Shown here piece after piece: positions 1 to 60,732 of a stretch of 64,000 nt of DNA. Origin of the DNA: Haloferax massiliensis (GTDB taxonomy: Archaea > Halobacteriota > Halobacteria > Halobacteriales > Haloferacaceae); assembly GCF_001368915.1 (NCBI RefSeq), contig NZ_CSTE01000006.1, positions 1 through 64,000 of the forward strand, in the 5' to 3' direction. The notes below the pieces were generated by a model. It was not told the origin of the DNA. It saw only the letters and a list, made by a program, of their open reading frames with translations, and did not search any database. Made by a program: the position numbers and the translations under genes. Positions within the stretch are counted from its first letter, which is position 1. The number at the start of each line of letters is the position of its first letter.

Positions 1-92
1 GTCTGCCGACTCATGCTCCGCCGACGACAGCGAACTCGCGGCGGCGACGGACCGAGCGTCCGCCCGTCGCGGCGCAGCATGAGTCGGCAGAC
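1..92. repeat. 16-bp perfect inverted repeat around two divergent ATG codons
   Basis: Bases 1-16 and 77-92 are perfect reverse complements (right arm GCATGAGTCGGCAGAC). Each arm contains an ATG followed by codons for S-R-Q, pointing outward: position 79 on plus and position 14 on minus. The left arm may continue outside the window. The 60 bp between the arms would hold both promoters if a minus-strand gene really starts at 14. Confidence 0.7.
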
Positions 93-249
93 GGCCCTCG
101 ACACGCTCGACCTCGACGACGACGCCTCCGAGGACGAGGTGAAAGCGGCCTACCGGAAGCGCGTCAAGGAGACCCATCCGGACTCGAAGACCGGCGACGA
201 GGAGGCGTTCAAGCGCGTCAACCGGGCCTACGAGCGACTGAGCGACTGA
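79..249 (+). CDS. Small J-domain (DnaJ-like) protein
   Basis: A 56-residue protein that is nearly all J domain. It has helix II, the diagnostic HPD tripeptide at residues 33-35 (in THPDSK) and a following helix containing FKRVNRAYERL. J domains stimulate the ATPase of Hsp70/DnaK. There is no glycine-rich region, zinc finger or client-binding domain, so it is not DnaJ itself. The frame is open upstream to the window edge through an ATG at 13, but the ATG at 79 lies just ahead of the domain and is mirrored by a divergent ATG at 14 on the other strand, so I take 79 as the start. If the true start lies off the window, the protein could be a longer J-domain protein with an N-terminal anchor. Confidence 0.75.
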   Translation: MSRQTALDTLDLDDDASEDEVKAAYRKRVKETHPDSKTGDEEAFKRVNRAYERLSD

Positions 250-57046: not shown

Positions 57047-57077
57047 TCGGTAAGTCGCTGGGGTGGACACGTGGGGT

Positions 57078-57491
57078 ATGGACGAGCTTGACCGGCGCAT
57101 CCTCGATATCCTTCGACGGGACGCTCGGACCCCCAACACGGAGATTGCGGCCGAGGTCGGGACCTCCGAGGGGACAGTCAGGAACCGCGTCGAGCGGTTG
57201 GTCGAGGAGGGCGTCATCGAGCGCTTTACCATCTCGACCCGCACGGGGAACCTGAAGGCGATGATAGAGGTGACCGTCGCGGTCGACGTCGACACCAACG
57301 ACGTCTCCGAGCTGATGGCCGACTGGAAGGACGTGGACTTCGTCTGGCAGGTCTCCGGCGAGGAGGACATCGTCCTCGTCGTCGAGGCCGCCGACACCCG
57401 CGCCGTCAACGAGCTCATCACCCGCGCCCGCGAGCACGACGACGTCAAGAGTACCAAGACCCGCCTGATTCTCGACGAGCGCCTCGGCTGA
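57078..57491 (+). CDS. lrp: Lrp/AsnC-family regulator divergent from carA
   Basis: A 137-residue Lrp protein with HTH (MDELDRRILDILRRDARTPNTEIAAEVGTSEGTVRNRVERLVEEGV) and the RAM domain (LKAMIEVTVAVDVDTNDVSELMADWKDVDFVWQVSGEEDIVLVVEA). It shares a 97-bp control region with carA, with a palindrome overlapping its own promoter region, so it probably controls both genes. I selected ATG 57078 in place of 57063. Confidence 0.88.
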   Translation: MDELDRRILDILRRDARTPNTEIAAEVGTSEGTVRNRVERLVEEGVIERFTISTRTGNLKAMIEVTVAVDVDTNDVSELMADWKDVDFVWQVSGEEDIVLVVEAADTRAVNELITRAREHDDVKSTKTRLILDERLG

Positions 57492-57568
57492 CGCCGCGCC
57501 GCCGCGCCGCCGCGTGGTCCGCGATTCGCATCGAAGCTTAGTTGACCCCCGACTCCGACGGAAGGCAC

Positions 57569-58138
57569 ATGAGCAACGCAGCGGCCGACGAGGCTACTGA
57601 ACTCCACGAGAACGCAGCGCAGGACGTCATCGCCGTCGACTCCGACGACAACGCGGAGGGGACGGTCAACCGACTCGACGCCCACACGGGCGACGGCATC
57701 CGCCACCGCGCCTTTACCTGCCTCGTGTTCAACGAGGAGGGCCAGATACTCCTCGCCCAGCGCGCGCCCAACAAGCGCCTGTGGGACACCTCGTGGGACG
57801 GCACCGTCGCCTCCCACCCCGTCGAGGGCCAGACCCAAGAGGAGGCCACCGAAGAGCGCCTCGAAGAGGAACTCGGCATTAGCCCCGACCAGTACTCCGA
57901 CCTCCGCGTCACGGACAAGTTCGAGTACAAGCGCTACTACGAGAACGCCGGCCTCGAATGGGAGGTCTGTGCCGTCCTGAAGGTCACGCTCGAAGACACC
58001 TCGCTCGACCCCGACGAAGACGAGATTGCGGGCATGCTCTGGGCGGACTACGAGCACCTCCACGACAACCCCGAGTGGTACCGCCAACTGCGCCTCTGCC
58101 CGTGGTTCGAAATCGCCATGCGCCGTGACTTCGAGTAG
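57569..58138 (+). CDS. idi: Isopentenyl-diphosphate delta-isomerase, type 1
   Basis: A 189-residue Nudix-fold IDI, supplying DMAPP for lipids and carotenoids. AHTGDGIRHRAFTCLVFN carries two metal His residues; WDGTVASHPVEGQTQEEATEERLEEELG is the Nudix region; LEWEVCAVLKV has the catalytic Glu. In the bacterial enzyme the Nudix strand reads SVCGHP with a catalytic Cys; here it is TVASHP, so that Cys is Ala. The last 14 bp overlap the following gene. Confidence 0.9.
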   Translation: MSNAAADEATELHENAAQDVIAVDSDDNAEGTVNRLDAHTGDGIRHRAFTCLVFNEEGQILLAQRAPNKRLWDTSWDGTVASHPVEGQTQEEATEERLEEELGISPDQYSDLRVTDKFEYKRYYENAGLEWEVCAVLKVTLEDTSLDPDEDEIAGMLWADYEHLHDNPEWYRQLRLCPWFEIAMRRDFE

Positions 58139-58544
58139 GCTCACCCTCGCAGACGACGCGCGAGCTGTGATTCTCTCGCACGCCCGCGAGGGTGCCGCCC
58201 GCGACCCACCCGCGGAGGTCTGCGGCGTCCTCGCCGGCGACGGCGACGCGCGCACCGTCACCGCCGCCCACCCCGTTTCGAACGTCGCCGACGAGCCGCG
58301 GGTCGCCTACGAACTCGACCCCGAGGAGACGGTTTCGATTCTCGAAACCGTCGAGGCGGCCGGCGACGACGCGGTCGGCTTCTACCACTCGCATCCCGAG
58401 TCCGACCCCGTGCCGAGCGCGACCGACCGCGAACAGGCCTCGTGGCCGGGCTACGTCTATCTCATCTGCTCGCCCGACGGCCGGCTGACCGCCCACGAGT
58501 GGACCGGCGACGAGCTCCGCGAACTCGCCGTCGCGGTCGAGTGA
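58125..58544 (+). CDS. jamm1: JAMM/MPN metalloprotease, desampylase (HvJAMM1-like)
   Basis: A 139-residue JAMM protein, cleaving the isopeptide bond of ubiquitin-like SAMP modifiers. The zinc motif is complete: Glu in PPAEVCGVLAGD, then HSHPESDPVPSATD, which fits H-x-H-x7-S-x2-D. GTG 58125 lies inside the end of idi, so the two genes are coupled. The position next to idi matches HvJAMM1 of H. volcanii from memory; the biochemical activity is known for that protein, not shown here. Confidence 0.88.
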   Translation: MTSSRLTLADDARAVILSHAREGAARDPPAEVCGVLAGDGDARTVTAAHPVSNVADEPRVAYELDPEETVSILETVEAAGDDAVGFYHSHPESDPVPSATDREQASWPGYVYLICSPDGRLTAHEWTGDELRELAVAVE

Positions 58545-59358: not shown

Positions 59359-60663
59359 TCACGTGACGCCGCCGCTCTGCTTCTCGAACGCCTCGTATTC
59401 GTCCCCGTCCAGAATCTCTCGGAAGTGCTCGACCGCCCGGTACACGTCCTCGAAGCCGACGTAGGCCGGCGCGGGGGCCATGCGGACGACGTTCGGCTGG
59501 CGGAAGTCCACGACGACGCCCCGCTCCTTGAGCGCGAGGCTGACGCGGTCGGCCTCGGGGTGTTCGACCGCGACGTGGCCGCCGCGGGCCGCGGGATCTC
59601 GCGGGGTGCCGACCTCGCACTCCGGCAGTCTGTCGTCCACGAGGTCGATGAGGAAGTCCGTGAGCGCCAGCGACTTCTCGCGGAGCGCCCCCACGCCGCC
59701 GGCGTCCTCGACGATATCGAGCGCGCCGTCGAGAGGGGCCGCCGACAGCACCGGGACCGTCCCGGACTGGAACGCGCCGGCGGACTGCGCCGGTTCGTAG
59801 GTCATCGCCATGTCGAACTGCGTCCCCTTGTCGTTGCCCCACCAGCCGGCGAGCGCGGGCGTGACGCCGAAGTGGCGCTCGTTGACGTAGAGGCCGGCGA
59901 CGGAGCCGGGGCCGGCGTTGAGATACTTGTAGTGACACCAGACGGCGAAGTCCGCGCCCACCTCGGAGAGGCGGTGCGGGACCGCGCCGACCGAGTGCGC
60001 GAGGTCGAAGCCGGCCAGCGCGCCGGCCTCGTGAGCCGCCTCGGTGATGGTCTCGATGTCGAACAGTTGGCCGCTCCGATAGAGGACCGACGGGAGAAAC
60101 ACCATCCCCACGTCGTCGTCGATGGCGGCGAGCACGTCCTCGGTCTCGATGGTCCGCCCGTCGCGGCTCTCGACCACGCGAAGCGCCTCGTCGGGGTCGC
60201 GGCCGGCCGCCCGGAGTTGCGCGCGAATCGCGTAGTGGTCCGTCGGGAAGTCGAGGTCGTCGACGACGATTTGCTCGCCGCGGGCGGGGTCGTAGAACGT
60301 TCCGACGAGCGCGTGGATGTTGACGGTGGTGGAGTTGGCGACGACGACCTCCTCGGGCTTCGCGCCGACGAGCGGCGCGAGTCGGTCGCCCAGTCGCTCG
60401 CCGTAGCTGAACCACTCGGGGTCGGCGTCGGTCCACCCGCGGATGGCGAGGTCGCGCCACTCGTCGACGACGCGGTCGAGCGCGGCTTCGGCGTCGACAG
60501 AGAGCGGGCCGAGCGAGTTGCCGTCCAGATACAGTTCGCCCTCGGGGACGAAAAAGCGGTCGCGGAGGTCCGAAAGCGGGTCCGTCGCGTCCATCTCGCG
60601 GGCGGTGTCGACGGTGAGCACGTCGGATTCGTCGGAGTCGCCGGGGTCGTCGGGTTCGGCCAT
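59359..60663 (-). CDS. kynU: Kynureninase
   Basis: A 434-residue PLP enzyme cleaving kynurenine (or 3-hydroxykynurenine) to anthranilate and alanine. DGNSLGPLSVDAEAALDRVVDEW and the substrate region STTVNIHALVG are typical; the PLP lysine is in WCHYKYLNAGPGSVAGLYV (about residue 245). MAEPDD at 60663 is taken as the start. It is convergent with the SDR. The haloarchaeal enzyme belongs to tryptophan breakdown. Confidence 0.9.
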   Translation of the reverse strand: MAEPDDPGDSDESDVLTVDTAREMDATDPLSDLRDRFFVPEGELYLDGNSLGPLSVDAEAALDRVVDEWRDLAIRGWTDADPEWFSYGERLGDRLAPLVGAKPEEVVVANSTTVNIHALVGTFYDPARGEQIVVDDLDFPTDHYAIRAQLRAAGRDPDEALRVVESRDGRTIETEDVLAAIDDDVGMVFLPSVLYRSGQLFDIETITEAAHEAGALAGFDLAHSVGAVPHRLSEVGADFAVWCHYKYLNAGPGSVAGLYVNERHFGVTPALAGWWGNDKGTQFDMAMTYEPAQSAGAFQSGTVPVLSAAPLDGALDIVEDAGGVGALREKSLALTDFLIDLVDDRLPECEVGTPRDPAARGGHVAVEHPEADRVSLALKERGVVVDFRQPNVVRMAPAPAYVGFEDVYRAVEHFREILDGDEYEAFEKQSGGVT

Positions 60664-60732
60664 ACGCGCCTCGAAGCGCCCGCGCGACAAGTAGGTGCGC
60701 GGCCCGCGCTGGAACCCGAGTGGCGGGTCCGC

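Follow-up and report, generated by a model that had tools for sequence, protein, structure and literature searches.

Alanine is fixed at the catalytic cysteine position of the type 1-like isopentenyl diphosphate isomerase of Halobacteria

The idi gene of Haloferax massiliensis encodes a type 1-like isopentenyl diphosphate (IPP) isomerase (IDI) with alanine at the position of the catalytic Cys67 of the Escherichia coli enzyme, and this alanine is the fixed state across Halobacteria, not a local mutation. The reading that we favour, with a probability of roughly 0.5, is that the gene supplies the cell's IPP isomerase, a member of a haloarchaeal subfamily of the type 1 fold in which Ala is fixed in place of the usual acid/base Cys and in which a different residue, Cys177, is the likely base. 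The gene lies in a window of 64,000 nucleotides, the whole stretch of DNA analysed (contig NZ_CSTE01000006.1, positions 1 to 64,000 of the forward strand), and the features discussed here are collected in Table 1.

Alanine at the Cys67 position across Halobacteria

The available part of PMC3547716 names a Cys and a Glu motif as features of type I IDI, and the hallmark Cys before HP is replaced by Ala in all 138 haloarchaeal rows of our alignment (137 distinct locus sequences plus the H. massiliensis protein, with several species present from two sources and the H. massiliensis locus itself also among the 137). A preliminary description of this DNA, made from the sequence alone, had claimed that Ala replaces the usual catalytic Cys, had proposed an alignment of haloarchaeal type 1 IDIs at this position as a check, and had allowed that its own alignment could be wrong. 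A phmmer search of PDB chains with the protein picked up type 1 IPP isomerases from human, E. coli and Salmonella. TVASHP aligned without a gap to SVCGHP of the E. coli and Salmonella enzymes, which places Ala81 at Cys67, bears out the original claim and rules out misalignment at this residue. The TVASHP motif is also present in 80/80 relatives from named records (the best 80 of 141), all of them haloarchaeal, the closest being proteins of Haloferax.

At the level of genomes, a type 1 gene was found at E <= 0.001 in 386 of 391 Halobacteria genomes, and the DNA pattern W-D-x-T-V-A-x-H-P gave one match each in the identical 386, with the reversed control pattern matching only G089 and G268. Both the gene and the Ala pattern are missing from G021, G218, G285, G381 and G382. 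Because the Ala is common to 386 genomes, an assembly or sequencing error is ruled out as its source. The H. massiliensis genome (4.0 Mb, 99.75% complete) contains a single type 1 match at E <= 0.001, and no second, Cys-bearing type 1 copy was found in it. Only one genome, G239, has two type 1 matches, the second of which is 26% identical.

The 189-codon frame is free of stops, and a TTG at 57542 is a possible alternative start that would give a longer protein. Immediately 5′ of idi lies a gene for an Lrp/AsnC-type regulator, and the gene that follows, for a JAB/MPN+ metalloprotease, begins with a GTG that lies inside idi, so that the two genes share 14 bases; its Haloferax volcanii counterpart we take to be the desampylase HvJAMM1. 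A kynureninase-like protein is encoded further downstream on the opposite strand. The Lrp gene is upstream of idi in 23/80 loci and the JAMM gene downstream in 21/80, although a few loci do not extend far enough to tell, and the arrangement with carA, the Lrp gene and the JAB gene is shared by no more than roughly one in four of these loci. The neighbourhood of idi is not class-wide.

Table 1. Features of the idi locus of H. massiliensis, in positions of the window
Feature	Position	Strand	Basis
Lrp/AsnC-type regulator	57063..57491	+	
idi, type 1-like (Nudix-fold) isopentenyl diphosphate isomerase, 189 aa	57569..58138	+	translation; PDB sequence matches; fold matches
His39, E. coli His25	57683..57685	+	invariant in 138/138 rows
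His46, E. coli His32	57704..57706	+	invariant in 138/138 rows
Ala81 codon, position of E. coli catalytic Cys67	57809..57811	+	phmmer alignment; haloarchaeal row alignment
His83, E. coli His69	57815..57817	+	invariant in 138/138 rows
Tyr120, E. coli Tyr104, catalytic	57926..57928	+	invariant in 138/138 rows
Glu130-Trp131-Glu132; Glu130 and Glu132 are E. coli Glu114 and Glu116 (metal ligand and acid/base)	57956..57964	+	both Glu invariant in 138/138 rows
Cys134, E. coli Cys118	57968..57970	+	Cys in 138/138 haloarchaeal rows and 7/13 Cys67-type bacterial rows
Cys177 codon, candidate relocated acid/base; position of Ser159 in E. coli, with Trp179 two residues further on	58097..58099	+	row alignment; DNA pattern
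Trp179, E. coli Trp161	58103..58105	+	invariant in 138/138 rows
JAB/MPN+ metalloprotease	58125..58544	+	Prok-JAB, E 7.5e-18
Kynureninase-like protein	59359..60690	-	KYNU_C, E 7e-32

Kept active-site residues and candidate replacements for the cysteine

Every type 1 active-site position that we checked is kept in the haloarchaeal protein, save Cys67 and with Lys21 present as Arg. Invariant among the 138 rows are R35, H39, H46, A48, F49, R65, K69 and W76, which correspond respectively to K21, H25, H32, A34, F35, R51, K55 and W62 of E. coli; equally invariant are H83, P84, R97, E101, Y120, E130, E132 and W179, the counterparts of H69, P70, R83, E87, Y104, E114, E116 and W161. This invariance upholds the earlier statement that the metal His residues and the Glu of the EWEVCAV segment are retained. 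We take His25, His32 and His69 of the E. coli enzyme to be metal ligands and Trp161 to stack against the carbon chain that undergoes reaction, and the parts played by the other metal and phosphate residues are likewise those that we presume for type 1 IDI. The yeast active-site residue set, in the portion of PMC5925831 at hand, offers a check on these metal and phosphate roles.

At positions conserved or nearly conserved among nine bacterial rows, the class carries Thr50 for Ser36, Asp77 for Thr/Ser/Ala63, Gly78 for Asn64, Ala81 for Cys67, Leu137 for Phe/Tyr121 and Cys177 for Ser/Thr159. Position 159 is Cys in all 138 of the Cys67-less haloarchaeal rows and Ser or Thr in all 13 Cys67-type bacterial rows (the nine together with four Cys67-type proteins out of eight added plasmid proteins, the other four being Nudix proteins). 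The DNA pattern Y-R-Q-x-x-x-C-P-W-F, which covers this Cys, is present in 386/391 genomes, the same 386 as the Ala pattern, and residues 134 and 177 are the only invariant Cys in the 138 rows. The main caution is that the changes at Ala81 and Cys177 both fall on the stem of a single clade (one branch, with 100/100 support; stem of 3.35 changes per column), and because both arose on this one stem their pairing counts as a single event and not as a statistical association.

An AlphaFold2 model built from 55 haloarchaeal sequences (H. massiliensis and 54 of the 80 related loci) had a mean pLDDT of 83.5 and a pTM of 0.79, and in it a helix is predicted to begin at residue 178, in a C-terminal part that is weakly modelled (means of 69 and then 49 in the last two blocks). 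The alignment of the model with 1nfs, which runs over 18..188 on 4..170, is consistent with Cys177 at position 159. The available text of PMC5925831 also speaks for the favoured reading: the yeast substitution W256C is reported to raise lycopene output, and docking locates the residue close to the hydrophobic portion of IPP. By the spacing of Tyr195 and Glu207, yeast W256 maps to E. coli position 161.

From its position and invariance we think it close to an even chance that Cys177 is the second base, in place of Cys67. It is quite possible that the acid/base Cys has left position 67 for position 159, where the C-terminal helix begins and the active-site Trp is close by. In type 1 enzymes, according to the accessible part of PMC3547716, the Glu takes part in protonating the double bond, and the Cys thiolate assists in proton removal. 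In the reading that we favour, H39, H46, H83, E130 and E132 would hold the metal, R35, R65, K69 and R97 would lie on the diphosphate, and IPP would be positioned as in E. coli. C4 would be protonated by Glu132 with Tyr120, and the C2 proton would most likely be taken by Cys177, located just ahead of the C-terminal helix to which Trp179 belongs; a thiol placed where a helix begins in this way would be expected to have its pKa lowered.

An unlikely alternative, but the most serious one, is that the enzyme is an active isomerase that uses no Cys at all. The two proton steps would then fall to Glu132 with Tyr120, or to an ordered water occupying the room left by Cys67, perhaps on a single face, and Cys177 would have a purely structural role. 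Both Glu132 and Tyr120 are invariant, Ala leaves room at position 81, and a helix-start role would account for the Ser or Thr at position 159 of the bacterial enzymes. The invariance of a new Cys beside the active-site Trp would nevertheless need some other reason, and loss of the Cys abolishes the activity of the E. coli and yeast type 1 enzymes. A close parallel is the E. coli C67A mutant (PDB 1ow2), in which substitution, position and fold are all the same; an Ala is also present in 1hx3. We take this mutant to be inactive. It is, however, a laboratory mutant that keeps Ser159, whereas the haloarchaeal Ala is a natural fixed state. A C67A mutant structure is described in the title of a reference cited by PMC3509576, as far as the part available of that paper goes.

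It is improbable that another polar residue takes the place of the Cys, be it Cys134, two residues after Glu132, Asp77, four before Ala81, or Glu119, beside Tyr120. All three are invariant in 138/138 rows, Asp77 and Glu119 being class-wide polar residues. Cys134 and Glu119 are nevertheless weaker candidates than Cys177, because their equivalents also occur in enzymes that bear Cys67 (for Cys134 in 7/13 of the Cys67-type rows, for Glu119 in two of them, L219 and L220) and so are not specific to the Cys-less state, and an Asp at the position of Asp77 is shared with the plasmid Nudix protein L223.

Fold and relation to known enzymes

The predicted structure has the fold of type 1 IDI. When the AlphaFold2 model was compared by VIA-align, ranks 1-9 were all filled by type 1 IDI entries of human and E. 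coli (Z 13.4 to 12.3), and the next matches were the YfcD / DR0079-like Nudix proteins 2fkb (Z 11.8) and 2o5f (Z 10.2). With the type 1 enzymes (E. coli Idi, yeast Idi1, human IDI1; TIGR02150) the haloarchaeal protein shares the fold, the metal His and Glu, the diphosphate Arg and Lys, and the equivalents of Tyr104, Glu116 and Trp161; it differs from them in having Ala for Cys67, Gly for Asn64, Cys for Ser/Thr159 and Arg for Lys21, in forming a separate clade on a long stem, and in scoring just below the curated cut-offs. The H. massiliensis protein reached 125.3 against a cut-off of 127 for NF002995 and 98 against 105.8 for TIGR02150, and among the phylum-scan matches no member of the class passed the TIGR02150 cut-off. 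The curated type 1 IDI models narrowly miss the haloarchaeal protein. Because its defining Cys is an Ala and its scores lie under these cut-offs, we class it as a Cys67-less haloarchaeal variant, of type 1 fold and probably working as type 1 enzymes do, and not as a canonical type 1 IDI. Human IDI2 (PDB 2pny) also has the type 1 fold (Z 12.8 to the haloarchaeal model); its activity is presumably weak, with Ser in place of the catalytic residue, but it stands beside a normal IDI1, whereas H. massiliensis has no second copy.

In a tree of 18 of the 138 haloarchaeal rows, 13 Cys-type rows and seven Nudix rows, the haloarchaeal clade lies with the Cys-type enzymes and apart from the Nudix proteins; the Cys-type rows fall on one side of a branch in only 46% of bootstraps, at a point where long branches meet. 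The presence of type 1 IDI in haloarchaea, with bacteria as its most likely source, has already been published, in the part available of PMC3533463. Elsewhere in the phylum, outside Halobacteria, type 1-like matches were found in 5/294 genomes. Three such candidates (L212, L213 and L214) were rejected as isomerases, as the isomerase residue set is missing and they look by eye like Nudix hydrolases. A further locus, from a non-haloarchaeal genome of the phylum (L211:177-728), is mixed by eye: it retains a TPW motif resembling the one in type 1 IDI, together with three of the His and one Glu, yet carries Ser in place of Cys67 and lacks Tyr104 and Glu114. A scan of viral contigs with the query P0001 and four bacterial queries returned two partial relatives.

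The near misses against both curated models, and the lack of any phylum-scan match above the cut-off, could also be taken to mean that the protein is a Nudix hydrolase or regulator rather than an isomerase, with DMAPP supplied by an unknown enzyme. The segment WDGTVASHP does resemble Nudix hydrolases such as that of a Parabacteroides plasmid (L223:230-721), a protein that combines the isomerase His/His/His/Glu/Glu set with a full Nudix box and lacks Cys67 and Trp161. Against this, the full Nudix box (GX5EX7REUXEEXGU) occurs in 0/138 haloarchaeal rows and in 3/4 of the plasmid Nudix proteins, the isomerase His triad and the equivalents of Tyr104 and Trp161 are invariant, and in the tree the haloarchaeal rows fall beside type 1 IDI, separated from the Nudix proteins (97/98). 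The gene is, moreover, near-universal in the class, and four of the five genomes without it have a type 2 IDI. We regard a Nudix hydrolase or regulator as very unlikely.

Backup isomerases and implications

Type 2 IDI (FMN-dependent; TIGR02151) catalyses the same reaction with a fold and chemistry unrelated to those of type 1, and is absent from the H. massiliensis genome: the best TIGR02151 match was partial and reached 20.7 bits against a cut-off of 281.3, with nothing at E <= 1e-15. As the same search also matched all 14 control genomes, the 20.7 bits are probably background. IspH is likewise absent from this 99.75% complete genome. Haloferax volcanii, used as a control, matches type 1 and has no type 2 match at E <= 1e-15.

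Across the 391 Halobacteria genomes, type 2 matches at 1e-15 occur in 117 and matches over the cut-off in 115; the latter include 111 of the 386 genomes with a type 1 gene, leaving 275 in which the Ala type 1 gene is the only one. Of the 377 better genomes, a type 2 match is present in 113 and missing from 264, and the two better genomes that lack type 1 (G021 and G218) both have type 2. Of all genomes without type 1, 4/5 have type 2, the exception being G381 (88% complete), which has neither; compared with the 111/386 this gives a Fisher p of 0.028, although the four come from two families and their independence is weak. Partial type 2 matches below the cut-off (G009:C1:1792146-1792382, G041:C2:5963-6226 and G231:C19:99508-99783) are possibly remnants of lost genes, and G214, G180, G162, G283 and G181 have two or three over-cut-off type 2 IDI genes each.

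The Cys-less protein is very probably the working isomerase, because the H. massiliensis genome has no type 2 IDI or IspH, 275 genomes have type 1 alone and 4/5 of the type 1-less genomes have type 2; its universality, its complementarity with type 2 and its kept active site make us confident that the haloarchaeal protein is active. The reading that the type 1 enzyme is weak or dead, with a type 2 isomerase as its backup, has a basis in the 111/386 type 1 genomes with type 2 over the cut-off, but is highly improbable given the 275/391 genomes with type 1 and no type 2 over the cut-off and the invariant active site, which a dead gene would not keep, and for the H. massiliensis genome it is refuted unless the assembly misses the gene. 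The preliminary description had offered two options: a weak enzyme with a type 2 gene elsewhere, which fails on the genome search, and another residue in place of the Cys, which is the better supported, with Cys177 as the leading putative candidate.

In published work on related species, within the parts available, HVO_2506 IdiA is named as the isomerase in PMC13358004, and HFX_2519 is named in PMC6282799 by 32% identity to E. coli idi. We treat both as putative isomerases. In the same part of PMC6282799, overexpression of candidate genes in Haloferax mediterranei gave lycopene only with crtB and no visible effect with idi, a result that is uninformative for idi since CrtB was limiting. In the open literature that we read, we found no statement on the missing Cys of haloarchaeal IDI and no activity measurements on such an enzyme, and subscription papers may differ.

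The Cys is treated as one of the two residues that define type 1 IDI, and a whole archaeal class manages without this Cys, in a reaction on which its membrane lipids and carotenoids depend and in genomes most of which, among those sampled, have no type 2 match. If Cys177 is indeed the base, the haloarchaeal IDI would represent a third active-site solution, beside the Cys67 type 1 and the flavin type 2 enzymes. As well as offering a clean case for distinguishing a catalytic residue that has moved from one that has been dispensed with, this natural counter-example makes the two-base mechanism directly testable in the tractable H. volcanii. It also carries a warning, that a missing Cys alone is no ground for calling such proteins inactive.
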